Shown: one piece after another, positions 3,289-28,597 of the stretch
Position numbering within the stretch: the stretch's first letter is position 1
Layout of the letters: every line of letters starts with the position of its first letter
Virus record (IMG/VR): IMGVR_UViG_3300037831_000026
Span: 1 to 28,597 of that record
From: a virus
Reading direction: 5' to 3' (one strand)
DNA: 28,597 bases
The notes under the pieces: model-generated
What the model was told of the DNA's origin: nothing
The model's database searches: none
The model's input: only the letters and a program-made list of their open reading frames with translations
Translations under genes and position numbers: made by a program

Positions 3289-3540
3289 TTAACGACGCAA
3301 AGTATTCAAGTTCGTGTTATGACCTTGCTGCATAAGAGAGTGCAGCGTCTGTATAGACGCTACGGCAGCAGCAAGCTCTGATGCTGTTATTCCAAACTCA
3401 GTCAAGTCATCGTCTGTGATACTGTTTGCATAATCCAAGCTATCCCATATCCATCTATACTCTAAGGCTATTTGAGCGTGCAGTGCTGTGTATTGACCCA
3501 CAGCATTCATATATCGTTCAATAAAAGTACTCTTTGTCAT
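3289..3540 (-). CDS. Small hypothetical protein, 83 aa, end of structural operon
   Basis: Last gene of the minus arm, 10 nt after the fiber-like gene and ending just before the convergent terminator. The start is supported by an AAGGAG-type site (complement of TCTCCTTA at 3545-3552). The product is predicted all-helical with an Ala-rich middle (ASELAAAVASIQ) and no membrane segment or cysteine. No family is recognised. Position suggests a minor virion or tail-tip component, but nothing in the sequence proves it. Confidence 0.6.
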   Translation of the reverse strand: MTKSTFIERYMNAVGQYTALHAQIALEYRWIWDSLDYANSITDDDLTEFGITASELAAAVASIQTLHSLMQQGHNTNLNTLRR

Positions 3541-3550
3541 ATTATTCTCC

Positions 3551-4675: not shown

Positions 4676-5188
4676 CTAATGTATCTCCCTACTTATACCA
4701 GTATCAAAGTCATTCGTAAGGGTATAGCCTATACTAGCTTGTTGATATGCTTTCCGCATTTCTTTGAGGGTATCAATGCGTTCATTGCGATTGAAACTAC
4801 CCTCTTCAGTGCTAAAGCTATATTCCTTACGCAGCAAAGCAATGAGTATAGTAATGCTTTCAGCAGCCGCCGCATAAATATTACAAGACGTACCATCAAC
4901 GTACAGTCTATCTTGCTCTTCTGAGAACTTCCAGTATCCCCGCGCCAGGTCCTCACTACTGGCAGTTACTTCAGTATCATCAGCATCATATATTGTAGCA
5001 TCTATCCAGTTACCTGCAGAAGCTCTGAATGTTTTCATATTACTATGAGCAGGGACTAACTCATTCTGAAACACCTTGACGCTATGTCTATCAATTATAT
5101 TCTGCAGGAGAGTATCAGACAGGTCATATGGGGTTTCACTATCAGCAATCAGATATCTAATACTTGTTATTGTAGCTGTATACGACAT
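4676..5188 (-). CDS. Putative head-tail connector/adaptor protein
   Basis: 170 aa, helical N-terminus followed by a mixed segment, then a helical region with YSFSTEEGSFNRNERIDTLK and an aromatic/Gln-rich helix. Phage head-completion (gp6-like) adaptors often carry a similar C-terminal motif (EYSFS...G.S..R......). Its place after the portal and the Mu F-like gene and before the fiber-like gene is the usual place for a connector. It would form a ring under the portal that closes the packaged head. The family assignment is by weak motif and position; it could instead be a minor head protein. Confidence 0.5.
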   Translation of the reverse strand: MSYTATITSIRYLIADSETPYDLSDTLLQNIIDRHSVKVFQNELVPAHSNMKTFRASAGNWIDATIYDADDTEVTASSEDLARGYWKFSEEQDRLYVDGTSCNIYAAAAESITILIALLRKEYSFSTEEGSFNRNERIDTLKEMRKAYQQASIGYTLTNDFDTGISREIH

Positions 5189-5200
5189 AATACACCCTCA

Positions 5201-5554
5201 CTATACTATCTTTAGTTTTACAGTACACCTGCACCTGGGGTGGTACTTAGGGAGTACAGCCACCCTGGGGCTCCCCCCCTGAACGACTATCATCATAATG
5301 CGTTGTACTTCTAACAACGCCTGAGTTACAGTGAACGTACCAGGAAAAGTGTACTGCTTACCTTGCTTTCTCCTACACACCTTACACGTCCGCTCATCAA
5401 ACCGAACTTGTACTACCCCCATAACCTTCTTATTCTTCATCTCTTGCACTTTCTTACGTAAGATAGCTGATGCAGTTTTTCCGCTTTCTTTAGCAATCTT
5501 CTTTGCAGTACGTACAGTCAGGTCAAATAAGAATTTTAGGACTTGTCCTACCAT
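5201..5554 (-). CDS. Mu F-like minor head protein (stand-alone C-terminal domain)
   Basis: 117 aa with the hallmark of the Phage Mu protein F head-morphogenesis domain: DERTC57KVC60 followed by H105-P-R-C108-R-C110, probably a zinc site. In most phages this domain is the C-terminal part of a 250-400 aa protein; here only about 110 residues remain, after a short basic helical leader (residues 1-45). It starts in a TAATG overlap with the upstream gene and lies three genes after the portal, as expected. These proteins are low-copy head proteins that interact with the portal. The domain call is firm; the short form is unusual. Confidence 0.8.
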   Translation of the reverse strand: MVGQVLKFLFDLTVRTAKKIAKESGKTASAILRKKVQEMKNKKVMGVVQVRFDERTCKVCRRKQGKQYTFPGTFTVTQALLEVQRIMMIVVQGGSPRVAVLPKYHPRCRCTVKLKIV

Positions 5555-6132
5555 TACAACCCTCGCTTATCGATATCTTCTTCTAATAGATATGGGAAAT
5601 ATTGTAGTGCAAACATAGTTTGTACCTTACATAGTGTATCAAGCTCCGTGTTTACATCTATACACAATGTCAACAGTCTACTCTCAGTATATATACGCTC
5701 TTCCTTACCCTCTCCTAACCACTTTTCGTTGCTCTCTTCAAGCTGTTGTGTCTTCATTGGTATATATTCGCTTATAATATACTCTTTAGTTAGCTCAATA
5801 GGGTACTTAACAAAGTCATTGACAGGTATTAAGTCATATACTTTGCCGTCAGGGTGAAGCTTAGATAGTTCTTTCTTACAAGTACCTGACGCAATAGTTA
5901 TTGCTATTGCTTGTAGCTCTTCCATAGATGTACGGAATGGTGTTTCTTCATTCCAGGTTAACCTCAATGCGTTATATATTAGTAACTCATCTCGTTCCAA
6001 GTCCTTCACAGAGCTACTCTTAACAGCGACAATGCCTGGAGCTATATCATCTTCACTGCAATGTCCACAACCACACGAGGGTGTCTTATGTATGTTAGGC
6101 TTGATTGTCTTCTTTCCCATCTTCTTTAGCAT
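5554..6132 (-). CDS. Hypothetical protein, 192 aa, between portal and Mu F-like gene
   Basis: No family recognised. The N-terminal 30 residues are basic and then Cys-rich (CGCGHC at about residues 20-25, with H23 between), which could bind a metal. The rest is predicted helical and acidic. An AGAAGGG site 7 nt upstream supports the first ATG; a second ATG four codons on is possible. It overlaps the end of the upstream gene by 38 nt and is coupled to the Mu F-like gene by TAATG. Since Mu F proteins normally have a larger N-terminal region, this gene may be the split-off N-terminal half. That is an inference from position only. Confidence 0.55.
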   Translation of the reverse strand: MLKKMGKKTIKPNIHKTPSCGCGHCSEDDIAPGIVAVKSSSVKDLERDELLIYNALRLTWNEETPFRTSMEELQAIAITIASGTCKKELSKLHPDGKVYDLIPVNDFVKYPIELTKEYIISEYIPMKTQQLEESNEKWLGEGKEERIYTESRLLTLCIDVNTELDTLCKVQTMFALQYFPYLLEEDIDKRGL

Positions 6133-6430
6133 TAGAATACCCTTCTATGTCTACTGCTAGTGTTTCTAGTAGTGCGTCTATATCAGTAGTCTTACTCTTT
6201 ACAGGTTGAGATAGTTCTATATTGTCTAACCCTGCTATCTTCATTGCATCTTCTACTGCGATGCCTGTATCAGTTAGTACTTTAAGATTAGATATCTTTT
6301 GAGTGACATTATCTGGAGTATGAGAGTTAGCCTGATCTAGATCATCAAACATTGTATAGATATTAATTATGTCTTGTTCTAACGCTTCTATCCTGTCTAA
6401 TATCTTATTGATAGCATCATCTATGTTCAT
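6095..6430 (-). CDS. Small coiled-coil protein next to portal, 111 aa
   Basis: The ATG at 6430 (MNIDDAINKILDRIEALEQD) is preferred to a TTG two codons upstream. It overlaps the end of the portal gene by 14 nt. The product is very acidic, with a predicted coiled coil in residues 1-35 and a helical middle (GIAVEDAMKIAGL). No family recognised. Size, acidity and coiled coil would suit a head assembly factor or a small scaffold, but the capsid gene already contains a linker that can serve as scaffold, so the role is open. Confidence 0.55.
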   Translation of the reverse strand: MNIDDAINKILDRIEALEQDIINIYTMFDDLDQANSHTPDNVTQKISNLKVLTDTGIAVEDAMKIAGLDNIELSQPVKSKTTDIDALLETLAVDIEGYSNAKEDGKEDNQA

Positions 6431-7679
6431 CAGCAACCCCCAGCCGCTTAATAGTTTCCTCTTGGATACTCATAAAACTACTATCTTCTTCTTTATTACC
6501 CACTAGTTTTTCCACTACAGGTCTATCATAGTCAAAGTCTTCTGGTTCATTATCCTCAATAGGAGAATACCCCAACATTTCTCTCGCTTCATTCACGCTT
6601 ATCATACCACCATATACAAGCCGCTGTAGGTTTATTGCCTTCTCTGTTTCCATCTCCTGTAGTACTTCTAATTGTTTGAAGTTGAACACTAGTTCTACGT
6701 TGTACTCGTTTAAGAACTTAGTATTAAGTTGTTCTGCAATAAATTCAGCTTCAGGTATAAGCGTGTTCATATAGAATGATAACCGCTCTTCTTTAGCTGT
6801 TGCGTAGTTTGATGAAGATGGAAGTAGAAGAGCCATAGGTACACCCATAGCAATCGTAATCTCCTCTTGCTTCTGTGTTGCTATGGCTTGAAAATCCATA
6901 TCCTTTAACCCATCGCCCACAGTCATAGGTGTAACCTGTGCAGTAGTAACACCAGTGCTCCAGGCATTCTTGACACCATTGACTAACTTTGACCACCAGG
7001 TTTCAAGCTGCGATAGCTGTTCCCTGGTAGGTGTAGCTAATGGATTATCACCCCCTACGGATAGCAATGTGGCTTTAATGGCACCCCTGCGAAAGAAATT
7101 AGTAGTGAAGGTATCCATATTCGCCATTGCATCAGCACTAGAAAGAGCAACACGTGCAGGTGATTGACCAGGGTATCTCGTATTGGTTAGGTTAGGATAC
7201 CATATTACTACTATGTCTTCAGGTTGCACTTCACTATAGACATTATATGCAGAAAAACGATAGTAGTCTGGTTCAAAAGCATTAGTACTATAGTACGGGG
7301 TTATATCGCTAGCAGGTATACATACGGGCATAGGGTTAAAACCATACTCGTTAGTTTGTCGTATCATATACGCGGCACCAGTCAATGCTAGACTTGCTTC
7401 AATATAGAACAAATAATCTTTTATTCTCGTATGCCATAGTCGTATTGGTTGTGGCACCTCATTGTTTGGGTCATACTCTTTTCCTCTCCACCTGTATTTA
7501 ACGGGGAATGAAGCAATAGTCTTTGCACGTATATCAATGCATCTATAAAGTGTAGGTACTATGTTGTATAAGTCAATCGGTGAATGCAAAGACTGTTCTG
7601 AGATATAGTCATCTTCTCTCAGAAAATCGTCTAGTGTATAACTTTTGATGCCTTCATTAGCTGTATGTTTGAAAAACAT
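6417..7679 (-). CDS. Portal protein, HK97 family
   Basis: 420 aa, normal length for an HK97-type portal (Phage_portal). The typical order of segments is present: an N-terminal region with YRCIDIRAKTIASFPVKYR, a core with the GAAYMIRQ and PEDIVVIWYPN motifs, PGQSPARVALSSADAM, the FFRRGAI segment, and the C-terminal MGVPMALLLPSSSNYATAKE and MISVNEAREMLGYSPI motifs, the last being very characteristic. It forms the dodecameric DNA entry channel and docks the terminase. The start has an AGGGGGTTAAG site immediately upstream. It lies downstream of capsid and decoration-like genes rather than next to the terminase, which is not the most common order. Confidence 0.93.
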   Translation of the reverse strand: MFFKHTANEGIKSYTLDDFLREDDYISEQSLHSPIDLYNIVPTLYRCIDIRAKTIASFPVKYRWRGKEYDPNNEVPQPIRLWHTRIKDYLFYIEASLALTGAAYMIRQTNEYGFNPMPVCIPASDITPYYSTNAFEPDYYRFSAYNVYSEVQPEDIVVIWYPNLTNTRYPGQSPARVALSSADAMANMDTFTTNFFRRGAIKATLLSVGGDNPLATPTREQLSQLETWWSKLVNGVKNAWSTGVTTAQVTPMTVGDGLKDMDFQAIATQKQEEITIAMGVPMALLLPSSSNYATAKEERLSFYMNTLIPEAEFIAEQLNTKFLNEYNVELVFNFKQLEVLQEMETEKAINLQRLVYGGMISVNEAREMLGYSPIEDNEPEDFDYDRPVVEKLVGNKEEDSSFMSIQEETIKRLGVADEHR

Positions 7680-7688
7680 CTTAACCCC

Positions 7689-8159
7689 CTAGATAGCACT
7701 TACATCAGCTATGGAAGATATAGGTACCCATATGTTTTGTGATGTATCGCTGCTGAATAGAACTAATACCTCTTTGTTTGCTAGTGAATGTGACGTTGGC
7801 ATTGAACCAACAAGATAGATATAATTACTTGCTGCACAGGTTACGGTGTGAGTACCACCAGCAGCAATCATAGCTATAATACTAGGGGTGTCTGTTATAG
7901 AAGGTAGCGTTATGTTTGCTTGTACCACAACAAGTACAATACTTTCTGTTGGGGTTATTGCACCAGCAGAAGTATGAAGTATAAATTCTGTACTTATACC
8001 AGTGCCCCCACCACCACCACTAAAGAAAGATGATAGAACGTCAAGTCCTACTCGTTTTGTATCGCTTGCGCTATCATCGTAGATTACCATATCATCTGCA
8101 TTCTCTAAACCACTAGGAAGGTTTGTTAAGTCTGGTATGGTTACATAATCACTGCTCAT
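7689..8159 (-). CDS. Putative virion decoration/fiber protein, 156 aa
   Basis: The N-terminus (SDYVTIPDLTNLPSG...DDMVIYDDSASDTKRVGLDVL) resembles the short anchor domain found on many phage tail or head fiber proteins. It is followed by a Gly linker (SFFSGGGGGTG, about 47-57) and a beta-rich C-terminal domain with little charge. Coupled to the upstream gene by TAATG and placed 9 nt before the portal gene. The anchor-linker-beta-domain plan suggests a protein displayed on the particle surface. No specific family recognised. Confidence 0.5.
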   Translation of the reverse strand: MSSDYVTIPDLTNLPSGLENADDMVIYDDSASDTKRVGLDVLSSFFSGGGGGTGISTEFILHTSAGAITPTESIVLVVVQANITLPSITDTPSIIAMIAAGGTHTVTCAASNYIYLVGSMPTSHSLANKEVLVLFSSDTSQNIWVPISSIADVSAI

Positions 8160-8827
8160 TATTTTGTCCTCACTAACTTATTATTAAAACTTAATGCTAC
8201 TGGTGGGTTATTACTAACAATCAAGATAGATGGGTTAGTAGGTATAGTAGTATTGTCTGCTATTGCACTTCCTGGAAACAAGTATGCTTCATCCCAACCT
8301 GTTAGAGCGGTTAATTCCATAGCGGTATCTTTTGTAAAGCTATCTTGTTTTGCATCTATTATCATAAGTGTAGGTATCGTATCGTGTGTCGTTGCCCCAT
8401 CAATTGTATAGATAACACCGTCGTATGCTATCCAGGTACCTTGTTTGGCTATAACATACCCACTTGTAAGCGTTGGGTGTGAAACTTCCCTATACGGGGA
8501 TTGTGGTATATTAACAGTTTCATCTAACGATACATAAAATTGCATTCTTTGCACGTAGAACGTACTATTACTTCGCTGTTCGGTATCAGTACCAATAGAA
8601 ACCGCACGACAATCAACGGGGGATGTATCCCAACCCTCATTCCCGCTAAGTCCTACCCATCGGTATACCTCTACATTGTTATCTAGTGTTGTCTGTAGAA
8701 AAGCTAAGGTTGCTAAAAACCTTTCTACTGTAAAACTCCCAAAATAGCATACATCAGTTAGCCTGCTTTCTAATAGGGTTTGTATATCATACTTTTCTTT
8801 CGGGCTTAAAACAGGTTTGCCGAACAT
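8159..8827 (-). CDS. Hypothetical structural-region protein, 222 aa
   Basis: No family recognised. The first 50 residues are helical (SPKEKYDIQTLLESRL); the rest looks beta-rich with many Thr, Asp and aromatic residues. It is the first gene after the hairpin at 8853-8882, and is coupled by TAATG to the decoration-like gene that follows. Length, beta-rich composition and location between capsid and portal genes fit a virion protein, possibly a head or neck component. Confidence refers to the gene being real; the function is unknown. Confidence 0.55.
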   Translation of the reverse strand: MFGKPVLSPKEKYDIQTLLESRLTDVCYFGSFTVERFLATLAFLQTTLDNNVEVYRWVGLSGNEGWDTSPVDCRAVSIGTDTEQRSNSTFYVQRMQFYVSLDETVNIPQSPYREVSHPTLTSGYVIAKQGTWIAYDGVIYTIDGATTHDTIPTLMIIDAKQDSFTKDTAMELTALTGWDEAYLFPGSAIADNTTIPTNPSILIVSNNPPVALSFNNKLVRTK

Positions 8828-8852
8828 ATATCCCCCTATATGATCAAAAGAA

Positions 8853-8882
8853 GGGCATTACCCATTATGTAGAGTAATGCCC
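8853..8882 (-). terminator. Intrinsic terminator/attenuator after decoration-like gene
   Basis: Stem GGGCATTAC/GTAATGCCC (9 bp) with a 12-nt loop. Read on the minus strand it is followed by TTCTTTTGATC. It would reduce transcription past the abundant capsid and decoration genes into the portal region. Confidence 0.7.
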
Positions 8883-8897
8883 CTAATGTGAGTATGG

Positions 8898-9365
8898 TCA
8901 ATCCACTTCGGTTACACTATCAAGCAAAGTATCTACAGTCTCATAACGGTTGTTGCTTGTGACAATCAAACCACTAACAGTCAGTTCATTGGTAGAAGTG
9001 AGTGTACTGGTAACCCTAATACGCATATAGGGATGAGTAGTAGGCAAATCAGTACTGTTTACTTCAATACCAATTACTTCACCAGAACCACCAGTAGCAG
9101 TAGCAGCAGTGTTATATTGTGTCCAGGCAAAAGCAGTAGCACTACCAGCAGTGTTATACGCAGCACTTCCATAATCTACATAGGCAGTACAAGTATTGTC
9201 ACTATCACTCCCTACCTGCACTACAGCGAGTGCTTTATCAGCAACACGCATATCTACACTATCCGTAGGAATGCTGGTAGCAGCACTCGTTGCACTAGAC
9301 AGGGTGGTACTAGCAACCCTTCCCTGTACTCCTAAACGCTCATACAGACGACTTTCAGTAGACAT
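8898..9365 (-). CDS. Probable capsid decoration (cement) protein
   Basis: 155 aa from the ATG at 9365 (MSTESRLYERLGVQGRVAST), chosen because TAAGGAGA lies 5 nt upstream; an in-frame start 36 nt further upstream lacks such a site. The product is rich in Ala, Ser, Thr and Val, beta-prone and weakly acidic, with no cysteine-rich or membrane segment. It lies directly after the major capsid gene and is bounded by hairpins on both sides (9393-9417 and 8853-8882), an arrangement that suits separate high expression. Phage cement proteins often occupy this position. The call rests on composition and context, not on a recognised family. Confidence 0.55.
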   Translation of the reverse strand: MSTESRLYERLGVQGRVASTTLSSATSAATSIPTDSVDMRVADKALAVVQVGSDSDNTCTAYVDYGSAAYNTAGSATAFAWTQYNTAATATGGSGEVIGIEVNSTDLPTTHPYMRIRVTSTLTSTNELTVSGLIVTSNNRYETVDTLLDSVTEVD

Positions 9366-9392
9366 TATATTCTCCTTATATATTAGAATAGG

Positions 9393-9417
9393 GCCCCTCA
9401 AAACGGATATGAGGGGC
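9393..9417 (-). terminator. Hairpin between capsid and decoration-like genes
   Basis: Stem GCCCCTCA/TGAGGGGC (8 bp) with a 9-nt loop. On the minus strand it is followed by CCTATTCTAAT, too poor in T for an efficient terminator. A role as partial attenuator or as an mRNA 3'-end stabiliser is plausible. Confidence 0.5.
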
Positions 9418-9429
9418 GCTATATATTAC

Positions 9430-11106
9430 TCATTGACTAAGAACAAAAGCGCTAACGGTTTCATCAGTACCAGAGCCAATTTTAATTGTGCTATCAAGCC
9501 AGGGTTGTCCATCCCCGCGCCAGGTGAAGCGCCAGGTAATCTTGTCATTCACAAACGACACGTGTTCACTTGACTTAACACTGATAGCTTGTTTTTGCCC
9601 AATGACATAGTATGACATATCAACAAGGGCAATACCACCTGCTGCAACAGTGGTAGGCATAACCTCGCTATACTCAATTGGGATACCCAGGAAGGTATAG
9701 GTAGGCTTACCCTGCAAGTTTGGCAAGAACCCAACAGCGTCATTGTCAAGGCCAAAGATGAGATGAGATAGCAGTGGGTTAATAAGCCAAACAGCTTTAC
9801 CATAAGATGAACTGATCAAACGACTACGCATTTCTGCAAACTCAGTCAATGTGGGGCTGGAGTCAGTCAAGTCAACTTTGATAAGTACATCAGGTTTATT
9901 CAGAAAACCCAATGGTTCACCTGCTCCACTACCATTCACATACAGCCAGTCTTTTCGATATGACAATGACTGTGCAACAAGTTGTGTCAATACACTCTCA
10001 ATAGTCAGTGGGCTGTCCGTCATAAGCTCTTCAGTAACTTCAGTGTACCCTGCTTGCTTGTGAGCAGTCAAGGTAATCTGGTTGAAGACAGGCTGTGTTT
10101 CAGTAATTGCTTCACCTTCGCCAGTCTTAACCCATTGCAACCCGCCAGCATACTGAGTTTGACCATCCACATATGTACCTGTCTGTTTAAGGACAGGAAT
10201 GTTAAGCGTTTTGTTCTTCATTGGGAATGATGTAGCAAGACGTTCAATGGTACTAGCATCTCGTGTTGCTTGCATAAGTCGAGCAATGAATTCTTCAGGT
10301 ACAGTGTAACCACCATCTTCACCGCTACTTTCATTCAAAGACTTAACATTATAAATACTCTTAAGGCGTCGTGTATCATTGCGATAGACAGCCAGGAAGT
10401 AATCACCCAAAGACTTTACATCATTTCCAGCACTATTGCTATCCCCGCCTTTGGTGCTAAACTGCAACGCATTAGAAGGTTTAGCGTTGTTCATTGCTTC
10501 CATAATAGACTTATACTGCTCATCTATCTTATCAAGTTTTTCTCTAAGTTCTGCAATAGTATATCGCTGTTCGTCTTGCTTCGTTTCTTCTTCTTCCTTC
10601 GCAACGACTTCTACACTTTCTTTCTGTTCAGTATCCATCTGTTCCTTATCCATTGATTTTGTTACTCCTCTTACAGTATTAACAGTTTCCTTCATCGCAG
10701 GGATAGGGGTTAAACTAAGCTCTCCCATATCCCAACGTTTAATTATTCCATTCTCTCGTATAGATGTATGACTTAATGCACCACTTGATAGACCTATAGC
10801 CTTGGCTTCTATAAGCCTCTGTATTTCCTCAACGTACTTGTGGTGTCTGTCAAGTTCAACCTCAAACTTTATGCCAACGTCATCTATCGTATAACTCTTA
10901 ACCATACCAATGCGAGTCTTTATTCCACTACCATCAGTAGATTGCAGTGTATGGTTATAGTATACTGGCATACCTTTAACTTCACGTTCAAACCCAAGGT
11001 GAGTATCTCTTGTAAAGGTTTCGCCAGTCAAGTCAGGTATGTCAAATATAATACCATAACCCTCATACGTATAGCTACCATCCATTGACCTGATAGCATA
11101 ATCCAT
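9430..11106 (-). CDS. Prohead protease-major capsid protein fusion
   Basis: 558 aa. Residues 1-145 are an HK97-type prohead protease (peptidase U35): catalytic H52 in MPVYYNHT, Ser in GLSSG (S107/S108), and the conserved GELSLTPIPA at 128-137. Residues 150-210 form a charged, Glu/Lys-rich helical linker, probably acting as scaffold (delta-like domain). From about residue 230 the HK97-fold capsid domain follows, with GGYTVPEEFIARLMQ (265-279) and conserved downstream segments such as EELMTDSPL and GKAVWLINP. The protease would release the mature capsid protein by cutting in the linker, likely between about 205 and 265. Most HK97-type phages have protease and capsid as separate genes; fusions are known. 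No separate scaffold gene is needed. Confidence 0.93.
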   Translation of the reverse strand: MDYAIRSMDGSYTYEGYGIIFDIPDLTGETFTRDTHLGFEREVKGMPVYYNHTLQSTDGSGIKTRIGMVKSYTIDDVGIKFEVELDRHHKYVEEIQRLIEAKAIGLSSGALSHTSIRENGIIKRWDMGELSLTPIPAMKETVNTVRGVTKSMDKEQMDTEQKESVEVVAKEEEETKQDEQRYTIAELREKLDKIDEQYKSIMEAMNNAKPSNALQFSTKGGDSNSAGNDVKSLGDYFLAVYRNDTRRLKSIYNVKSLNESSGEDGGYTVPEEFIARLMQATRDASTIERLATSFPMKNKTLNIPVLKQTGTYVDGQTQYAGGLQWVKTGEGEAITETQPVFNQITLTAHKQAGYTEVTEELMTDSPLTIESVLTQLVAQSLSYRKDWLYVNGSGAGEPLGFLNKPDVLIKVDLTDSSPTLTEFAEMRSRLISSSYGKAVWLINPLLSHLIFGLDNDAVGFLPNLQGKPTYTFLGIPIEYSEVMPTTVAAGGIALVDMSYYVIGQKQAISVKSSEHVSFVNDKITWRFTWRGDGQPWLDSTIKIGSGTDETVSAFVLSQ

Positions 11107-11108
11107 AG

Positions 11109-11432
11109 TTACTCCTCTTTATTCATCTTAAGGACCTTAGCGGCGCTCTGATAGCTTTCTACATCGCTACCACTGAACGCTACCATCAAAGCAGCTTCTA
11201 TCTTCTTAACAGACGCGACGGTTTCATAATAATGCTTTGATAACTCATTGTACTGCTGCATAATATCTGTTGTCTTCTGTACTAGTTCCCCTACCACTTT
11301 TGTATAGTCGTCAAGGGATTGTCGAACTTCTATAACTTCAGCCTTAAGAAACTTAAAGAAATAGAGTAGTACCACTACCAAAATGGCAGCATAACCACCA
11401 TCCTTAAGAACGTTTGCTATAAACTCTTCCAT
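11109..11432 (-). CDS. Membrane-anchored coiled-coil protein, holin-like
   Basis: 107 aa. The N-terminus reads MEEFIANVLKDGGYAAILVV; residues 13-30 are one hydrophobic membrane segment, followed by a long coiled-coil-like helix. This plan resembles the BhlA/UviB class of small holin-like proteins (one N-terminal membrane segment, charged C-terminal helix). It lies between the terminase and the capsid fusion, separated by 2-5 nt on each side, far from the endolysin. It may be a holin, or a membrane tether linking packaging or head assembly to the envelope. The membrane topology is clear; the function is inferred. Confidence 0.55.
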   Translation of the reverse strand: MEEFIANVLKDGGYAAILVVVLLYFFKFLKAEVIEVRQSLDDYTKVVGELVQKTTDIMQQYNELSKHYYETVASVKKIEAALMVAFSGSDVESYQSAAKVLKMNKEE

Positions 11433-11436
11433 ACAA

Positions 11437-12630
11437 TTACATCCTTCTTAATGCCCATACCGCTAGTGCAAGTGCAATGACGCAATCATCATTATACCCA
11501 GGCGGTGCATTGAATGATCCATTCCTTTCTTCGTATACGCTTAACTCTTGTATGAGTCGTTTGTTATTAAGTAATGTTACTTTACTCTGTTCTAAGTATA
11601 GTATTAAGTTGTTGATAAGATTATTCTTTATCTCTTTAGTAAACATAACAGGGTTAATAGGTAATCCCAAAGGTATTAGATATTGAACAACAGGTACACC
11701 CACCCCTGTAGCATCTATCATTATAGTATCAGGTTTATATCTCTTGTCCAGTTCTACTAACATGTCACCTAAAACTTGCATATGCCATTGCCCCTGATAC
11801 ATCTGTACCATAGTACTTGTAGTAGCATCTATAACAACGATAGCGGTATAGTCGTGCTTGAATGCTAAGTCTATGCCGATAACATATGTATGGCCCTGTA
11901 TTGGTTCTTGTGGTACAGCTGTAGCAAGTTCTATAACATTGCTAAACAATTGACCATCTGAGATAAATTCAGCAAGTATCTCCTGGCGGTATACCCTCTC
12001 TGGCAATGTCTGTTGCAAAGAATCTAGTTCTTCGTGTGGTATATGGGGGTTGCTGTACGATGAATAATTCCACTGCGTATACAAGGTAGACGCATAGCAA
12101 TCAGCAAAGTAATTTTGCCCCTTCGGTGTACCAATTAGCCACAGGGTACCAGAATAGTCTATAAGAGTAGGGTTAATCACCTGTTCTACCAGTTCCTCAA
12201 GCCTGGATATAACCCCACCCTCGTCTATTATTGCAAGAGCATACTTTCTACCCCTCATCCTATCTGGTTTTTCTGCACTCTTAAAGTCTATACGTATGTT
12301 TGTATCAGGTATTGTGATAGTACGTTCAGACTTATTTACTATTGCTTTATCTGGAATATACCTCAATGTTTCGTTCCATACCGGAAGCAAGTCTGAGTAC
12401 GTTGGTGCTATATATACCCTTGGAGCATTTCGATAAAAGTACAACAACAAGAACGCAGCAAGTGTACTCTTCCCTAACCGTCTACCAGCACAAAGAACAT
12501 TTTTCCTACTTGCTGTACTTATTATGTCGTGTTGTACATCGTGTAGATCAGGGAAGGGAGTATATGTACTAGCAGTAGATAACTTGTTCTTGCTCTTCTG
12601 CTGTCTGTACAATTGTACAACTTTGCTCAT
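11437..12630 (-). CDS. terL: Terminase large subunit
   Basis: 397 aa packaging motor. The ATPase domain has a Walker A-type motif AGRRLGKST at 48-56 (K54), Walker B with D136-E137 (YALAIIDEGG) and the coupling motif GTPKG at 167-171. The RNase H-fold nuclease domain has its acidic residues at D254 (VIGIDLAFKHDY), D306 (IMIDATGVG) and D381/D382 (YNDDCVIALALAVW). It cuts concatemers and pumps DNA through the portal. It is short for the family (often 420-600 aa) but complete in motifs. Its start lies inside the end of the preceding small gene, a 62-nt overlap, so the two are translationally linked. Confident. Confidence 0.95.
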   Translation of the reverse strand: MSKVVQLYRQQKSKNKLSTASTYTPFPDLHDVQHDIISTASRKNVLCAGRRLGKSTLAAFLLLYFYRNAPRVYIAPTYSDLLPVWNETLRYIPDKAIVNKSERTITIPDTNIRIDFKSAEKPDRMRGRKYALAIIDEGGVISRLEELVEQVINPTLIDYSGTLWLIGTPKGQNYFADCYASTLYTQWNYSSYSNPHIPHEELDSLQQTLPERVYRQEILAEFISDGQLFSNVIELATAVPQEPIQGHTYVIGIDLAFKHDYTAIVVIDATTSTMVQMYQGQWHMQVLGDMLVELDKRYKPDTIMIDATGVGVPVVQYLIPLGLPINPVMFTKEIKNNLINNLILYLEQSKVTLLNNKRLIQELSVYEERNGSFNAPPGYNDDCVIALALAVWALRRM

Positions 12631-14234: not shown

Positions 14235-15008
14235 TTATAACTGTGTCAAAATTCTATGTATCTTGCGGCCATACTCATTATCTGATGCCCAAACTCCACT
14301 TAGGTTATCAATTCCACCCTTCAAAATGCCGCGTAGGTGTGTTGGTAATGGCCTATCAGATAGGGCCTGGCTTATATACGACTGCTGCTCTGGTGTAACA
14401 TTGTCATCAGGTGTGTAGTAGTATGCTAATAATCTACCTATATGACTTATTATGCCTTGCTCAACTGTATCAAAATGTAAACCCCTTCCATCCCCTACAA
14501 CTCCTAGACCTGCCGGGTTATTATGACGACTGAACCAGGTTGAAGTGAAGTAAGCAGTCTCAAGTAATGCTTGAGATATAGGTAGAATAGGCTGTATACC
14601 AACGAAATAACTATGGTGCCAGTACAACCACACATAGTACCTCGTGCGTACACTACCACCTGCTGCTTGTACAACACATTCAGGTGGTACAAATTTACGT
14701 GTATCCATTAGGTCTAAGGTTTCAGGCAATGTCCTATACGCATAGCGTAGATACATTGACCAGTGCTTATTGCTCCAGTTGTATGTGCTGTATGTTTGTC
14801 CGGAGGGTATAAACCCTATACCACTACTCAACCAAAGCCAGGCAGCGCTATCACTTTCTTTTATGTATTCCCCCCGTATAACAGCCCCTATTTCAATAAT
14901 ACAGTCATAGTCTAAAATGGCAGCAATAGTACTTTTATTGCGTTGTGGTGCTTGATAGACAGCAACAGGCTCTTTGATATATACGTCCCAGGGCAATGAT
15001 GGTATCAT
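14235..15008 (-). CDS. Endolysin: SH3-like domain plus glucosaminidase
   Basis: 257 aa. Residues about 10-70 look like a bacterial SH3-type wall-binding domain (PVAVYQAPQRNKST...WLWLSSGIGFIPSG). Residues about 135-255 match the N-acetylglucosaminidase (GH73/LytG-like) fold: SQALLETAYFTSTWF with probable catalytic E150, the NNPAGLG motif at 163-169, HFDTVEQGI around 178-186, and a C-terminal VWASDNEYGRKIHRIL. It would cut peptidoglycan between GlcNAc and MurNAc at the end of infection. No signal peptide, so release needs a holin. It overlaps the FtsK-like gene by 4 nt (ATGA). The reversed order, binding domain first, is less usual. Confidence 0.82.
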   Translation of the reverse strand: MIPSLPWDVYIKEPVAVYQAPQRNKSTIAAILDYDCIIEIGAVIRGEYIKESDSAAWLWLSSGIGFIPSGQTYSTYNWSNKHWSMYLRYAYRTLPETLDLMDTRKFVPPECVVQAAGGSVRTRYYVWLYWHHSYFVGIQPILPISQALLETAYFTSTWFSRHNNPAGLGVVGDGRGLHFDTVEQGIISHIGRLLAYYYTPDDNVTPEQQSYISQALSDRPLPTHLRGILKGGIDNLSGVWASDNEYGRKIHRILTQL

Positions 15009-15760
15009 ATTTCTTTCTCCTTATACACATTATTACTTATATCGACTGTTACCTTATCAAACTGTTCTGATACTTGATCATCTTCTATGGTGTAACTTGC
15101 AACAGGCTTCTTAACCTCAATGAACACAAAGTTGTCAAGCATATCACTAGCACGCTCAAAACCCAATTGCTTTACTAGTTTTGATTGACTAAGTACCACA
15201 AGCCACATATTAACCTTACGTGCTTCAGATGATAGTTGTTTCATAGTATTACCCACTGCACCTTTTGAAGTATTACTTGTAATAGCGGGTAGTTCGTCAA
15301 TCACTATGAATATATCATTAAACGTAGCATTGCAATCTTCATAATACTCCTGGTATCGTGTTTCCATAAGCGCAAGAATATTAGTCAAGGCGCTTTCTAT
15401 GCTTGCATAATCCCTACCACCACCTATACATTCATTCAACCCCCACTGTCCTTTTCTGTGGTGGGGGTTAACGACTATGAATTGAGCATCAGGTATACTC
15501 TTCTGGATATGTTGTAGCGCATACTCAACATACGTAGACTTACCCCTTCCTGTACTTCCATATATTAGCAGATGATACCCATACCATTGTGGCTTTGTAT
15601 ACGGCTTGTACAGACGTTTAACCCCATTGTTGATACCTAGACCTATTCCCTTCAAAATATTGCCTGCGAATGGTTTTGAGGGTACATCCTTGACAAGTAC
15701 CCAGAAGATACCAATTGCTAAAAGTATAAGTTCTGTGTAGAACAAATATGTTTCAATCAT
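15005..15760 (-). CDS. Membrane-anchored FtsK/HerA-like P-loop ATPase
   Basis: 251 aa. Residues 5-23 are one membrane segment (LFYTELILLAIGIFWVLV), followed by a basic stretch and an ATPase domain with Walker A GSTGRGKST (68-76, K74), Walker B FIVIDE (D155, E156), and a conserved LSSEARKVNMWLVVLSQS segment (sensor-like Gln191). This is the pattern of the FtsK/HerA superfamily, which includes DNA translocases and conjugative coupling proteins; Zot-like phage ATPases are related in plan. It is short and lacks a DNA-reading gamma domain. It is coupled by ATGA to the endolysin. The phage already has a terminase, so the role is probably something other than head filling, such as DNA uptake, segregation or membrane attachment. 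That is inference. Confidence 0.75.
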   Translation of the reverse strand: MIETYLFYTELILLAIGIFWVLVKDVPSKPFAGNILKGIGLGINNGVKRLYKPYTKPQWYGYHLLIYGSTGRGKSTYVEYALQHIQKSIPDAQFIVVNPHHRKGQWGLNECIGGGRDYASIESALTNILALMETRYQEYYEDCNATFNDIFIVIDELPAITSNTSKGAVGNTMKQLSSEARKVNMWLVVLSQSKLVKQLGFERASDMLDNFVFIEVKKPVASYTIEDDQVSEQFDKVTVDISNNVYKEKEI

Positions 15761-15836: not shown

Positions 15837-16232
15837 TTAACTAGCGTTGTATATAACTTCCGTAGCCAGTGCAAGAATAAAACCAACAGTGATAGAAAGA
15901 ATAACCAGGAAACCGTTAGTAATTGTTACTCCTACTCCCTGCATCATCAAACCCAGCGCGTGCTTGGGTAGATTGAGAAGAGCAACAAATATGCCGGACG
16001 CTGTTAGTATACTATCTATCGCTGCGGCAATGATAACAACCACAATCATCAGGCTGTCTTTCTTATACTTGCTATACTGACGTATACCAACGTGTTCAAT
16101 GTACGTACAACTAAGCTGTACGAATGCAGCAAAGATTAAAGACATTGCAGCGTTCTCATTGAATGCATAGAAAAACACATAGTTAGCATACGTTCCAATT
16201 AGCCATAGACCTATGGCTATAAACTTAAGCAT
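15837..16232 (-). CDS. Four-helix integral membrane protein, 131 aa
   Basis: Almost the whole protein is hydrophobic, with four predicted membrane segments: about 3-24 (IAIGLWLIGTYANYVFFYAF), 28-48, 60-88 (IVVVIIAAAIDSILTASGIF) and 94-128. The short loop between segments 2 and 3 is basic (RQYSKYKKDS). The start has an AGGGGGT site. It is the last gene before a strong terminator and the gene before the membrane-bound FtsK-like ATPase, which makes a functional pair plausible. It could also be a holin, although holins are usually shorter and with charged tails. No family recognised. Confidence 0.65.
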   Translation of the reverse strand: MLKFIAIGLWLIGTYANYVFFYAFNENAAMSLIFAAFVQLSCTYIEHVGIRQYSKYKKDSLMIVVVIIAAAIDSILTASGIFVALLNLPKHALGLMMQGVGVTITNGFLVILSITVGFILALATEVIYNAS

Positions 16233-16723: not shown

Positions 16724-16762
16724 CTTTTAACTCCTTGACTATGTGTTTGCTTAACTGTTTAT

Positions 16763-16791
16763 AGTATAGCATAGGTTTCACAGGTTGTCAA
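16763..16791 (-). promoter_or_regulatory. Sigma-70 promoter, minus arm
   Basis: On the minus strand TTGACA (16791-16786), 17-bp spacer, TATACT (16768-16763), then ATAAACAGTTAAG. The 43 nt from 16792 to 16750 match the promoter of the RNA gene (25488-25530) at 39 positions. Confidence 0.9.
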
Positions 16792-16867
16792 GAGGCAATT
16801 TAACTATAGTTAGTAAACTAACAATCTACTCGATACTACTATCACGTAACTTCTTAGTTACTATAAA

Positions 16868-17478: not shown

Positions 17479-17519
17479 TTTGTTTGCTCTTTCTGTCTAG
17501 TGATTACTTAACTGTCTTT

Positions 17520-17548
17520 AGTATACTACATCTCAACCGGTTTGTCAA
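17520..17548 (-). promoter_or_regulatory. Sigma-70 promoter, start of minus arm
   Basis: On the minus strand TTGACA (17548-17543), 17-bp spacer, TATACT (17525-17520), then AAAGACAG. It is back-to-back with the plus promoter at 17596-17624; the 47 bp between their -35 boxes hold direct repeats ACTATAGTACTAA and ACTATACTAA that could be an operator. Confidence 0.88.
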
Positions 17549-17595
17549 GTACCAATTTGTTACCTCACTATAGTACTAATGGACTATACTAAGTC

Positions 17596-17661: not shown

Positions 17662-18435
17662 ATGCTTATGATAATACCCCCACAGCTTCGGCAAGGTGTC
17701 TTCATAGAGAAGAAACAGGATAGCAAAATTAACTCACAGAGATGTAGCAGTGGTGAAATAATACAGACTATAGTAGAACATTCATACGAAGAAGCAACCG
17801 CAGCAGTACAACGCAAGATGAATGTAGCGCTAAAGCTATCAAGTATGCGCATTGTTGTAGTAGATATTGACAATAAGCAAGCACTAGCGTTTGCTAATAA
17901 AAAAGGGTTGAGCAGCACGCTAACAGAAAGAACAGCACGAGGCTACCACCTGTACTACAGTATACCAGAACACGTCTTATACTATCATTCACACACGTAC
18001 AAGAACGGACTGGAGCTAAAGTGTACTGACTATATAGACAGTAACCTTAATGTTGTATGCTCTCCGTCTTGCGTAAGTGGTGTACAATATGAAGTAGTCA
18101 ATGATGTAGATATAGCTGTTGCACCTGTCTGGATACTTGATAAGATAAGACGTACTATGTCGACTGTTACTTCAGATCGCGTAGACTTAAGTAATGTCCC
18201 GCAGCTTCTTGACAACATTGACTACGATGACTATCACGCCTGGCTGTCCGTCGGTATGGTACTGCATAATATTTATGAAGGTAGCAACGAAGGTTTTGAG
18301 CTATGGTGTGAATGGTCAAGTCAGTCTCATAAATATGACTACTACAAAACACGTATGGCATGGAGTAGTTTTGATGACTACACTGGGAAAAAGAAAGGCT
18401 ATGGTAGCCTAGTGTATATGTCTAAACGTAAGTAG
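17662..18435 (+). CDS. Archaeo-eukaryotic-type primase-polymerase
   Basis: 257 aa. Residues about 1-160 form the bifunctional primase/polymerase (Prim-Pol, AEP) domain: metal-binding D68-I-D70 in RIVVVDIDN, the TERTARGYHLYY segment with H96, and GLELKCTDY followed by SPSCVSGVQYE, the usual last motif. Residues about 180-252 match the PriCT-2 C-terminal domain (LLDNIDYDDYHAWLSVGMVL...WSSQSHKYD...W). It lays down primers for replication, working with the VirE-type helicase that follows. It is compact compared with larger primase-helicase fusions. The site AAAGAG fits either the first ATG or a second one two codons later. Its stop codon falls inside the first of three 41-bp repeats. Confidence 0.88.
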   Translation: MLMIIPPQLRQGVFIEKKQDSKINSQRCSSGEIIQTIVEHSYEEATAAVQRKMNVALKLSSMRIVVVDIDNKQALAFANKKGLSSTLTERTARGYHLYYSIPEHVLYYHSHTYKNGLELKCTDYIDSNLNVVCSPSCVSGVQYEVVNDVDIAVAPVWILDKIRRTMSTVTSDRVDLSNVPQLLDNIDYDDYHAWLSVGMVLHNIYEGSNEGFELWCEWSSQSHKYDYYKTRMAWSSFDDYTGKKKGYGSLVYMSKRK

Positions 18436-18544
18436 AGTATAAGTTAATACAAGTGTATATGGCTAAACGTAAGTAGAGTATAAGTTAATACAAGTGTATA
18501 TGGCTAAACGTAAGTAGAGTATAAGTTAATACAAGTGTATAAGG
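18422..18544. repeat. Three tandem 41-bp repeats between primase and helicase
   Basis: Units at 18422-18462, 18463-18503 and 18504-18544 are nearly identical; a partial fourth (CTTAACGTAAGGAG) forms the ribosome site of the helicase gene. Each unit begins with the last codons and stop of the primase (AAACGTAAGTAG), and from unit 2 on it follows ATGGCT, giving a tiny frame MAKRK. The period is not a multiple of three. It looks like recent tandem duplication of the primase tail and spacer. Confidence 0.9.
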
Positions 18545-18565
18545 CTTAACGTAAGGAGTAATGTA

Positions 18566-20390: not shown

Positions 20391-20453
20391 AAAGGTGATT
20401 ACAATGGGGGAAGTATACTCACACCACATATTGAAGCGCTTCAAAATTGCCTC

Positions 20454-20482
20454 TTGACAAACCAGGTGAAGTGTAGTATACT
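20454..20482 (+). promoter_or_regulatory. Sigma-70 promoter
   Basis: TTGACA (20454-20459), 17-bp spacer, TATACT (20477-20482), then ATAAACAGTTAAG. The upstream AATTGCCTC is also present upstream of the minus promoter at 16763-16791. Drives the zinc-ribbon-like gene. Confidence 0.92.
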
Positions 20483-20515
20483 ATAAACAGTTAAGTAATT
20501 GAAAGGAGCTATTTA

Positions 20516-22956: not shown

Positions 22957-24525
22957 ATGATTAACCTGGACATATGGAATGGTAAGTACGCAGCCTATTC
23001 TGGAGAAACGTATGAGCAAGGGTGCAAGCGTGTTACTGATGCTTTGGGTGTACCAGAGTTAGAACAGTTATTGCTGGATGAGAAGTTTAGTGTAGGTGGT
23101 AGGGTTTGGTACGGAGCAGGAAAACCAAAGTCGTATATGGTAAATTGTGGACTGTTTGGTGTAGGAGATAGTGCAGAAAGTTGGGCAAAACTTTCACACG
23201 ATGTAGAATTGAGCTTGACGAAAGGACTGGGTTGCGGAATAGACTATTCTGCTATTAGGCCGTATGGTTCGCGTATTGCTGGTAGTGGTGGTACTGCAAG
23301 TGGTGCTGTAAGTAAGATGTATATCACTAATGAGATAGCACGGTTTATTATGCAGGGCAACACGCGACGAGCTGCTTTGCTTGCACAATTGCATTGGCTG
23401 CACGGAGATATACATTCATTCGTTGATGCGAAAACTTGGGATGAGGAACAAACCAGATTGAAGAACATTAACCCAGATAAGTATCCCGCACCACTTGACC
23501 TTTGCAACATATCCGTTAGACTTGATGATAAGTTCTTTGCTGCTTATCAGAATGGTGATAACCAGGCTACAAAAGTATGGAATAACGCTACGAATAATAT
23601 GTTTCGATACAGCGAACCGGGGTTTAGGTATAACCCAGATAATCAGGTCTACACGAATGCGTGTGGCGAAGTAATATCTAGTTATGACCGTGATACGTGT
23701 ACGCTTGGATCTATCAATTTAGCTGTAGTAAACAGTATTGACGAGCTAGAATACATTATAAAGTACGCAGTATTGGCACTACTAAAGGTAAGACACCTAA
23801 CAAAATACCCAACAGAAGAGATGCGTCAAGTAGCAATTAATCATCCACGAGTAGGCCTAGGCGTAATGGGCCTTCATAATTGGTTAATCCAACGAAAATT
23901 ACCCTACCAGTGGTGCACAGAGCTTGACGAATTGTTCAGTGCTGTATATGAGATTGCACAATACTATGGTGAATACTGGTGTAAGAAATACCATTACAAC
24001 AAGCTAGAAGGACATATCGCTCACGCTCCAACAGGCTCAATAGCCAGGTTGTTTGGCGGTATATCTTCTGGTATTGAACCAATTTTTGCTCTTGCCTACA
24101 AGTGGAGATATACGTTGAACAATGAAGTAAGAGAACAAGTAGTTATTGATAGCAATGTCGAAACGTTTATGGAGCAGGGTATAGACCTAGATACTGTCGA
24201 GGACGCATACTATCTGGCGAACCCAGATGGTTTCAAGCGTAGAGTAGAGATGCAGGCTAACATACAACGATATTGTGACAATGCTATATCCTCAACTATT
24301 AACCTGCCTGCCTGGGGAACACCTGGTAACAACGAATTAACCTTGCCAATATATCGTAGCATTTTGCTTGAGCACCTGCAAGAGCTTAGGGGCATAACCG
24401 TATATGCCAATGGTAGTCGTAGTGGACAACCACTAACCGCAATACCTATCAATGAAGCATTGGAGCAAGTACATATACAAGGTAGTGAGTATAGCAATTG
24501 TAGCAATGGTGCCTGTGCATTATAA
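22957..24525 (+). CDS. Adenosylcobalamin-dependent (class II) ribonucleotide reductase
   Basis: 522 aa. Catalytic thiyl-radical cysteine C236 in TNACGE (N234, C236, E238), redox pair C64 (MVNCGLFGV) and C248 (RDTCTLGSINLA), the APTGSIARLFGGISSGIEP loop around 350-380, and a C-terminal swinging pair C515/C520 (CSNGACAL). No small radical subunit gene is present, which with the motifs points to the B12-dependent class II enzyme. It makes dNTPs for phage DNA. It is shorter than most class II enzymes (about 600-740 aa), with no N-terminal ATP-cone, so allosteric control is reduced or absent. Preceded by a GGGG(A)G site. A class I or III assignment is unlikely. Confidence 0.88.
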   Translation: MINLDIWNGKYAAYSGETYEQGCKRVTDALGVPELEQLLLDEKFSVGGRVWYGAGKPKSYMVNCGLFGVGDSAESWAKLSHDVELSLTKGLGCGIDYSAIRPYGSRIAGSGGTASGAVSKMYITNEIARFIMQGNTRRAALLAQLHWLHGDIHSFVDAKTWDEEQTRLKNINPDKYPAPLDLCNISVRLDDKFFAAYQNGDNQATKVWNNATNNMFRYSEPGFRYNPDNQVYTNACGEVISSYDRDTCTLGSINLAVVNSIDELEYIIKYAVLALLKVRHLTKYPTEEMRQVAINHPRVGLGVMGLHNWLIQRKLPYQWCTELDELFSAVYEIAQYYGEYWCKKYHYNKLEGHIAHAPTGSIARLFGGISSGIEPIFALAYKWRYTLNNEVREQVVIDSNVETFMEQGIDLDTVEDAYYLANPDGFKRRVEMQANIQRYCDNAISSTINLPAWGTPGNNELTLPIYRSILLEHLQELRGITVYANGSRSGQPLTAIPINEALEQVHIQGSEYSNCSNGACAL

Positions 24526-24533
24526 ATTAGTAC

Positions 24534-24562
24534 TTGACAAACAGTGTAGCATATGATACACT
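24534..24562 (+). promoter_or_regulatory. Sigma-70 promoter
   Basis: TTGACA (24534-24539), 17-bp spacer, TACACT (24557-24562), then ATAGACAG as in the rest of the family. The -10 is the weakest of the series. Confidence 0.78.
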
Positions 24563-24601
24563 ATAGACAGTTGATAGTGGTTATATACAAAGGAGTTAAT
24601 T

Positions 24602-25470: not shown

Positions 25471-25488
25471 TCTGATTACATCTACACC

Positions 25489-25517
25489 TTGACAACCTGC
25501 GAACCCTATGCTATACT
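25489..25517 (+). promoter_or_regulatory. Sigma-70 promoter of the tmRNA-like gene
   Basis: TTGACA (25489-25494), 17-bp spacer, TATACT (25512-25517). Nearly the same 43-nt sequence drives the minus arm at 16792-16750. Transcription would begin about 25524, giving a 42-nt leader with a small hairpin (CCAGT/ACTGG at 25543-25560) before the mature RNA. Confidence 0.9.
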
Positions 25518-25565
25518 ATAACCAGGTAAGGAAAGTCGTTTGCCAGTATCGTATAACTGGTATAT

Positions 25566-27498: not shown

Positions 27499-27762
27499 AT
27501 GGACACACAGAATCTGTTGAATGAACGACGCCAGGAGTATGGACAAGCGTGGGTAGTAGCAGGTATGATTATGCAAGCATTCAATGAAGTTATCTTCATA
27601 AGTAACTTGTTCGCCTGCACACCATACGGACACAACTGGATACTAATACTTAGTAAGCTATGTCGTGCCTTGCACTCTCCGTATAACCGGGACCATTGGC
27701 AGGATATCGTAGGGTATTGCCAACTAGTGTTAGACGATATTGATACCCTGGAAGAGAAGTGA
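27499..27762 (+). CDS. Small phage protein of a DUF6378-like type, 87 aa
   Basis: Pattern LLNERRQEYGQAWVV...W...LSKLCRAL...DHWQDIVGYCQLVLDD is that of a small all-helical phage family (R.xYG, K..R, D...DI.GY), commonly found near nucleotide-metabolism genes and distantly reminiscent of MazG-like hydrolases. Function not established. AAGGAG lies 14-19 nt upstream. Its TGA stop (27760-27762) is made by the first bases of the following iteron array. Confidence 0.65.
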   Translation: MDTQNLLNERRQEYGQAWVVAGMIMQAFNEVIFISNLFACTPYGHNWILILSKLCRALHSPYNRDHWQDIVGYCQLVLDDIDTLEEK

Positions 27763-27867
27763 TACACAGTGATATATCAAGTGATACACAGTGATATATC
27801 AAGTGATACACAGTGATATATCAAGTGATATACCGTGATATATCAAACCATATCAAGTGATACACTA
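27758..27867. repeat. Array of 22-bp iterons upstream of the membrane wHTH gene
   Basis: Core units at 27758-27779, 27780-27801, 27802-27823 (identical, AGTGATACACAGTGATATATCA) and 27824-27845 (two variant bases), then a spacer AACCATATCA and a half unit to 27867. Here the 22-bp cores abut without the 10-bp spacer used at the genome ends. It lies 14 bp before the winged-helix start codon, so it should include that gene's control region. Confidence 0.92.
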
Positions 27868-27880
27868 TTGGGAGATAGTT

Positions 27881-28507
27881 ATGAATACAAGACGGGATAC
27901 ATTTTATCAGAAGCACAAAGATGAGCTTACTATACTATTCTTGGCTAGTGCCAATATACCAGTGATATATCAATGGTATACTGGATATGAAAGCAAGATA
28001 TTACTGCTCATCTTTGGCATATCAGCTTGTGTAGGGTTAGACTTTGCTGTAGTAACTCAGACAAGCAAAGTGAATAAGAACGTTTTCACTTGGGCTGCAT
28101 TGGTACTAGCTTCTATATTCACAGCATCTATAGCCATAACAATGTACGGGTCATTGCCAATTGATAACGGTTACTTACACGCTGCATACTCAATCGTGTT
28201 ACTTTTTACATCTTTAAGCAATTCGTTAGACGTAGTTGAGCAGCATTCTATTACACAACTAGACCAGAGTATCCTGGACCAGAGTATCCCATTGCCTCAA
28301 CTAACCACAAAGGAGCAGCAGGTATATGATTATCTGATAGAACGTTCACCTGAGGGTATATCAACTCGACAACTAGCTGAAGCAATGGAGATGCCTTATA
28401 ATTCCCTGCGGGTATATGTAAAGAGGTTGCGTGATAAAGAATATGTGAGGAATGATGATGGTTTTGTATCAGTGATACACCGTGATATATCAACCCATAT
28501 CAAGTGA
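27881..28507 (+). CDS. Membrane-anchored winged-helix regulator (putative)
   Basis: 208 aa from ATG 27881, which has GGGAG 6 nt upstream; a GTG 24 nt before is inside the repeat. Residues about 18-115 hold four membrane segments (for example ILLLIFGISACVGLDFAVV and WAALVLASIFTASIAITMYG). Residues about 140-200 form a winged helix: LTTKEQQVYDYLIERSPEG, then STRQLAEAMEMPYNSLRVYV and a wing. The last 12 codons, VIHRDISTHIK plus stop, are made of iteron sequence. Arrays of the same iteron flank the gene and a half site lies inside it (27960-27973). It probably binds the iterons, tying DNA or transcription to the membrane. The binding is inferred. Confidence 0.7.
   Translation: MNTRRDTFYQKHKDELTILFLASANIPVIYQWYTGYESKILLLIFGISACVGLDFAVVTQTSKVNKNVFTWAALVLASIFTASIAITMYGSLPIDNGYLHAAYSIVLLFTSLSNSLDVVEQHSITQLDQSILDQSIPLPQLTTKEQQVYDYLIERSPEGISTRQLAEAMEMPYNSLRVYVKRLRDKEYVRNDDGFVSVIHRDISTHIK
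27960..27973. repeat. Iteron half-site inside the winged-helix gene
   Basis: CAGTGATATATCAA, an exact copy of the right half of the 22-bp iteron, occurs inside the coding sequence at the end of the first membrane segment (codons for P-V-I-Y-Q). Confidence 0.8.
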
Positions 28508-28597
28508 TACACCGTGATATATCAACCCATATCAAGTGATACACCGTGATATATCAACCCATATCAAGTGATACACCGTGATATATCAACCCATATC
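28470..28597. repeat. Tandem 32-bp iteron array (right end)
   Basis: One 31-bp unit (28470-28500, missing one A) and three full 32-bp units, then one base. Positions 28501-28597 equal 1-97, so the two ends overlap or join. The array begins inside the last codons of the winged-helix gene. Confidence 0.92.

Follow-up and report, generated by a model that had tools for sequence, protein, structure and literature searches.

A predicted membrane-anchored winged-helix protein and an adjoining repeat array, kept together in two phages, as a possible DNA-to-membrane attachment module

The window analysed here, a single virus record of 28,597 bp (IMGVR_UViG_3300037831_000026), contains arrays of tandem repeats beside a gene for a predicted four-helix membrane protein with a C-terminal winged helix (TM-WH). 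Gene and array are found together in a second phage, and a core word is common to the repeats of both. We regard it as nearly an even chance, though somewhat less, that the gene and its 3' array constitute a cis-acting module for attachment of DNA to the membrane, or for its segregation, that supplies its own anchor protein; this reading is based on two phages, one of which has a frameshifted gene.

On the minus strand of the window, from about 3.3 to 17.5 kb, lie the capsid, portal, terminase and lysin genes among others. The plus strand, from 17.7 kb through the contig end to 3.2 kb, carries, among others, genes for PrimPol, a VapE-type helicase, MazG, ribonucleotide reductase, a RuvC-like resolvase, PAPS reductase, DUF6378 (27499-27762, plus strand; Pfam E 5e-8), TM-WH, a family A DNA polymerase (204-2273, plus strand; Pfam DNA_pol_A E 3e-56) and an exonuclease. 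The structural genes (3289-12630) include no long tape-measure gene, the longest open reading frame there being a 558-residue capsid-protease fusion. A HerA/FtsK-like ATPase with an N-terminal hydrophobic helix (15005-15760; predicted structure with pLDDT 45) adjoins a second small multi-helix membrane protein (15837-16232), and in the related phage described below the counterparts of these two, 56% and 47% identical, flank the contig ends. Sigma-70-like promoter regions (TTGACA...TATACT-like, with a common tail and pairwise 76-89% alike) recur on both strands at 16747-16801, 17503-17558, 20444-20499, 24524-24572 and 25488-25534; the iteron is in none of the five.

The upstream iteron array (27757-27846, plus strand) directly adjoins the DUF6378 gene and consists of four 22-bp direct repeats, AAGTGATACAC[A/C]GTGATATATC, recognised by TRF, by pattern count and in the sequence itself. 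TRF reports it as 4.1 copies of AAGTGATACACAGTGATATATC with 97% matches, and the fourth unit is a TATAC variant. After it come a spacer of 10 bp and a half iteron, AAGTGATACAC (27846-27866, plus strand; sequence and repeat search), which precede the ribosome-binding region of the TM-WH gene. Four units, spacer and half unit fill the 118-bp gap between DUF6378 and the TM-WH start codon; the four copies plus a half of the original prediction are thus found, the half unit ending at about 27866. The downstream array has a period of 32 bp with 99-100% matches (TRF), its unit being the same 22-mer plus AACCCATATC, and occupies positions 28467-28597 at the right contig end and 1-127 at the left (both plus strand). 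It starts in codon 196 of the 208 codons of the TM-WH gene, encodes residues 196-208 (the last 12-13 codons) and the stop codon, crosses the contig joint and ends 76 bp before the DNA polymerase gene, much as had been foreseen for an array running from the last 12 codons across the joint toward the polymerase. Between the two contig ends there is an exact overlap of 33, 65 or 97 nt, in each case wholly within the 32-bp repeat. The window contig closes on itself through this array, but the genome joint proposed earlier needs correction: because the overlap is entirely internal to the repeat, the real genome may hold 5, 6, 7 or more units, and we rejected the joint as a sign of physical ends or of copy number.

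These arrays are far beyond chance. The 20-mer TGATAYACMGTGATATATCA has 12 mismatch-free occurrences in the window, every one of them inside the arrays, and none of 100 dinucleotide shuffles contained 12 copies (shuffle mean 0.02). The word GATATATC occurs 13 times, 12 times in the arrays and once inside the TM-WH gene. A half site within the gene had been included in the original prediction and is present as GTGATATATCA (27962-27972, plus strand). We nevertheless regard it as incidental and give it no weight as a functional part, since it is a single stray 11-mer and the TM part of the related gene has no GATATATC. Every unit contains the perfect palindrome TGATATATCA plus a second TGATA. The spacing between TGATA half sites is for the most part 10 or 12 bp in the upstream array and 10 and 22 bp in the downstream array, so that they recur every 22 or 32 bp, near whole helical turns; their helical phasing, examined once the periods were already known, has a mean vector of 0.73-0.93 at 10.5 bp per turn.

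The TM-WH gene (27881-28507, plus strand; ATG at 27881, TGA at 28505-28507) encodes a protein of 208 residues, whose topology and winged helix are predictions from modelling. AlphaFold, given a four-row alignment, places helices at residues 2-34 (kinked), 39-61, 68-90 and 97-133, followed by a winged helix-turn-helix (wHTH) at 143-198. This prediction agrees with the four-TM, C-terminal winged-helix protein proposed from the sequence, with the helices at low confidence: mean pLDDT is 59 overall, 71-80 over the wHTH and about 48-61 for the membrane part, and the array-encoded residues past 198 form a low-confidence tail. The region encoding the putative winged helix (residues 139-198; 28295-28474, plus strand) was assigned from AlphaFold, VIA-align and weak Pfam matches to wHTH families, none of which is above cut-off; in VIA-align it aligns with ArsR, MarR and MecI-type domains (Z about 9-11). 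Lysines are found at the N-terminus and in loop 2, and acidic residues in loops 1 and 3, a charge distribution that would favour an N-in/C-in arrangement and is consistent with a cytoplasmic winged helix. Comparison of the fold with viral proteins gave no matches at E up to 0.001. Common ancestry with the phage's other membrane protein (15837-16232) was rejected on hhalign probabilities of 0.2-1.6%, which come from profiles of 1-4 sequences and hence are not decisive.

Searches of IMG/VR by way of the polymerase gave one related phage, IMGVR_UViG_3300025717_000003 (37,944 bp), with a polymerase 73% identical; of the 39 window proteins searched, tblastn matched 28 to it with E no higher than 0.01. 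In scans of viral contigs the TM-WH protein was encoded in only one other record, and the exact iteron pattern, a scan that misses distant relatives, had no further match. Scans of genome contigs with terminase and ribonucleotide reductase as queries gave no relatives. With the TM-WH protein as query, tblastn found no match in phages at E up to 1, and in plasmids it found 5 records with weak matches limited to the HTH part. The protein was in none of four distant phage records (L004, L009, L010 and L011), which may be fragments.

In the relative the gene order is PAPS reductase, DUF6378, a methyltransferase, TM-WH and the array, with the polymerase further on, so that DUF6378 is the second gene upstream of TM-WH. 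Over aligned codons the window and the relative are 52% identical in the TM part and 46% in the WH part. The relative's array, four 21-bp units of TATAGGATTGCGATATATCAG, starts at the last codon of the WH reading frame, and its units have the core GATATATCA in common with those of the window but have otherwise diverged. When shuffled with composition preserved, 23 of 5,000 pairs shared a word of 9 or more for the 22-bp unit and 35 of 5,000 for the 32-bp unit. Nothing but this array reaches a TRF score of 50 in the relative's first 19 kb, and the three such rows in the rest of the genome are all in coding sequence. Homologous genes without nearby iterons had been named as the finding that would speak against the original prediction; in the only relative found, the array is at the same place and has the same core. 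The proposal of a self-contained module of membrane-anchored winged-helix gene and iterons therefore gains support from a relative that keeps both, the binding of one to the other being presumed. Elsewhere in the relative, genes for DpdA (Pfam E 9e-57) and a Vut_1-type transporter (L002, 2132-2893 and 2874-3350) suggest 7-deazaguanine DNA modification, and the ribonucleotide reductase gene (L006, 10955-12735) has an interruption of about 212 nt between the positions of window-protein residues 235 and 237, possibly an intron or a frameshifted insertion.

The TM and WH parts of the relative's gene lie in different frames, joined across a 0-frame TGA, and the gene as assembled thus gives no single tethered protein; it may be damaged, may encode two proteins or may be read with a frame shift. 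The 61-nt stretch containing the frame change recurs, 93% identical, at L002:6564-6624, where it precedes a second, more diverged WH domain that is 48% identical to the first over aligned codons and sits behind a broken GIY-YIG reading frame (L002, 6207-6741). This stretch may be a scar or the product of misassembly, or may mark a programmed shift, and the DNA-binding domain may have been shared between membrane protein and nuclease. Differences at codon positions 1, 2 and 3 number 18/14/28 between the relative's two WH copies and 23/19/21 between the WH of the window and that of the relative, implying that selection on the protein is clear in the first comparison and unclear in the second; the corresponding counts for the TM part are 52/34/74.

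Are the iterons simply operators? TM-WH could be a membrane-bound regulator, repressing or activating its own gene and the polymerase promoter and perhaps sensing a signal at the membrane, although we consider this unlikely. The gap before the TM-WH gene is filled by one array, and from the end of the other it is about 12 bp to a good sigma-70-type match of the polymerase gene, TTGACA-17-TATGAT (140-168, plus strand; 11/12), which stands between array and gene. Positions 1-3600 of the window hold 14 promoter-like matches against a shuffle mean of 9.8, however, so this is a consensus match only, and the upstream array has no promoter-like match inside it. The WH domain resembles, in its predicted structure, MarR/ArsR/MecI regulators, and centromere-binding proteins are often also repressors, according to the available text of PMC5016525; against this, four or more near-identical sites exceed the usual need of one operator. 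In the relative, no array is found upstream of the TM-WH gene, the start of which overlaps the methyltransferase gene, and 1,855 bp separate the downstream array from the polymerase gene, a stretch that holds GIY-YIG reading frames together with a gene whose matches to phage DNA primases are weak, and in which promoter-like matches are not above those in shuffles. For these reasons control of the polymerase operon, which had been suggested earlier, was rejected as a conserved role. The conserved unit in these two phages is thus the TM-WH gene with the array at its 3' end, and not a polymerase operator.

A second alternative, that the array is a replication origin with TM-WH as a membrane-bound initiator or helicase recruiter, we judge improbable. 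The 22-bp repeats are iteron-like and adjoin the polymerase gene, and the relative's array is the only non-coding tandem array there with a TRF score of 50 or more. By the usual marks of an iteron origin, the iterons are present but no outstanding AT-rich stretch lies alongside them: none of the genome's 15 most AT-rich 60-bp windows adjoins the array. The cumulative GC-skew minimum, a measure confounded by gene direction, is near 17.5 kb, away from the array, and a different array (18411-18555; TRF), which consists of 3.5 units of 41 bp and separates the PrimPol gene from the VapE gene, is a candidate origin or operator and the more natural origin candidate. The original prediction had raised an origin; one used by the phage's own initiator is made less likely by the relative, which keeps the module although tblastn finds neither the PrimPol nor the VapE of the window there, and which has a DnaB-like helicase instead. 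Since primase and helicase differ between the two phages, the gene-array module appears to be independent of them. About as improbable is that the repeats are bound instead by some host protein or by the machinery of packaging, and adjoin the gene only incidentally: TM-WH-iteron binding is something that we infer, and near the Thermus phage four-TM and HTH genes discussed below no arrays were found in three regions, but the same gene end and the same core word recur in the relative despite clearly diverged proteins, and GATATATC is nearly absent elsewhere (12 of 13 occurrences in the window, and 3 of 4 in the relative's 18-kb locus, are in arrays).

A cis-acting site read by its own anchor fits these observations, since the gene-array unit is kept, no polymerase operator is kept, and primase and helicase differ. 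For binding, tethering and purpose we infer a scheme in which the TM-WH protein would be held in the cytoplasmic membrane by its four helices, with the C-terminal winged helix facing the cytoplasm, and several copies would bind the tandem sites. The spacing of these sites, 21, 22 or 32 bp, is close to 2, 2 and 3 helical turns; the sites would thus lie on one face of the DNA, and the array could lie flat against the membrane. Such attachment would bring the phage genome to the membrane to be replicated, or would anchor the copies for segregation, the membrane helices replacing the motor of partition systems. Autoregulation may come in addition through the window's second array, the one preceding the gene; this is proposed because DNA-binding proteins of this kind often repress their own genes.

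A parallel is found in Thermus phages. Rank 13 in the fold comparison was a 200-residue protein of Thermus phage P74-26, identified by its length as P74p12. In a hydropathy scan three of its segments exceed the threshold, and a fourth can be made out by eye; its HTH_17 match (E 1.6e-4) falls short of the Pfam cut-off. A tblastn search with P74p12 gave 11 records, all of them Thermus phages. In 8 of the 11 rows the features covered by the match include DNA polymerase, and the polymerase overlap is seen also in TSP4 and phiFa, making at least 10 of 11, with OP542242 the remaining record. Like TM-WH, P74p12 and its relatives in the Oshimavirus phages and phiFa combine membrane helices with a C-terminal HTH, and their genes lie directly upstream of, and overlap, the DNA polymerase gene. 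Unlike TM-WH, they have an HTH_17-type domain, and no iterons were found in three regions: those of P74-26 and TSP4 have no tandem repeats near the gene, and that of phiFa has a single 12-bp run (score 40) inside the polymerase gene. Homology between P74p12 and TM-WH was not detected in sequence comparison, and common ancestry was rejected on hhalign probabilities of 0.2-1.6%, again from profiles of 1-4 sequences and so not decisive. In our reading the Thermus proteins have probably converged with TM-WH on one arrangement, a DNA-binding protein held in the membrane and encoded next to the polymerase, and do not count as members of its family.

How does TM-WH compare with other known systems? 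ToxR and CadC have an N-terminal cytoplasmic winged helix, one TM segment and a periplasmic sensor, whereas the winged helix of TM-WH is predicted to be C-terminal, behind four helices. The phi29 protein p16.7 has a single N-terminal TM segment and a C-terminal DNA-binding domain, and thus differs from the four-helix topology predicted for TM-WH. It acts on terminal protein and displaced strands, with no iterons, whereas the window combines four predicted helices with a winged helix and has a family A polymerase, the tandem sites lying next to the TM-WH gene. The likeness is that p16.7 and p1 serve in membrane anchoring of phage DNA, as phage-encoded membrane proteins that tie replicating DNA to the membrane, as given in the available text of PMC4974454. 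DUF2637 proteins are similar in having a multi-helix membrane part, with an entry from Rhodococcus phage RGL3 at a weak E of 0.067 in the fold comparison, but membership of DUF2637 (PF10935) was rejected, no Pfam match being found for TM-WH at E up to 10, and none in either of two phage records, and the RGL3 protein, unlike TM-WH, has no DNA-binding domain in Pfam. Pfam assigns that protein, which is labelled an excisionase (L021, 21544-22017), to the DUF2637 membrane proteins (E 1.4e-12), and the label therefore looks wrong.

Partition systems offer a comparison for the site. In type III TubZRC and type II ParMRC, as described in the part of PMC5016525 available, a small DNA-binding protein coats direct repeats adjoining its own operon and can repress it, the protein of TubZRC being TubR, a winged helix. 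As in ParABS, ParMRC and TubZRC, the repeats in both the window and the relative are adjacent to the gene of a putative DNA-binding protein. The difference from type I, II and III partition lies in the motor NTPase: hmmscan against Pfam and/or PHROGs gave no ParA, ParM or TubZ, and no integrase, among the window proteins scanned, a set that covers part of the short or overlapping reading frames. TubR is absent from the best 50 structural matches listed, which excludes nothing, and the TM-WH model is that of a generic winged helix. In the AlpAC system of Corynebacterium prophage CGP3, the adaptor AlpA binds a repeat cluster, alpS, that adjoins its gene, and couples the phage DNA to filaments by which this DNA is driven to the membrane (PMC4446434, available part). 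AlpAC differs in needing an actin-like filament, and the available part of that paper does not describe AlpA as a membrane protein (PMC4446434). A search of the literature, covering few subscription papers, found nothing on membrane-anchored centromere-binding proteins or on membrane-anchored phage DNA-binding proteins with tandem repeats, and the available portions of PMC11437467 and PMC10770324 do not mention the gene.

The phage may thus tether its DNA to the cell membrane, with binding as the presumed link. To our knowledge, attachment of replicating phage or plasmid DNA to the membrane has long been proposed but has few molecular examples, and a gene-plus-site cassette of about 900 bp, in which gene and site have diverged together in two phages, makes a concrete case that can be tested. 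It is a more doubtful proposition, yet one that we entertain, that a one-protein, motor-free, centromere-like system, with an integral membrane protein bound to helically phased iterons next to the gene that encodes it, pins the phage DNA to the membrane for replication or inheritance, and that unrelated phages (the two described here and the Thermus Oshimaviruses) have independently joined a multi-helix membrane anchor to different DNA-binding domains near the polymerase gene. The Thermus parallel has named hosts, so that the idea could be tested in a cultured phage.
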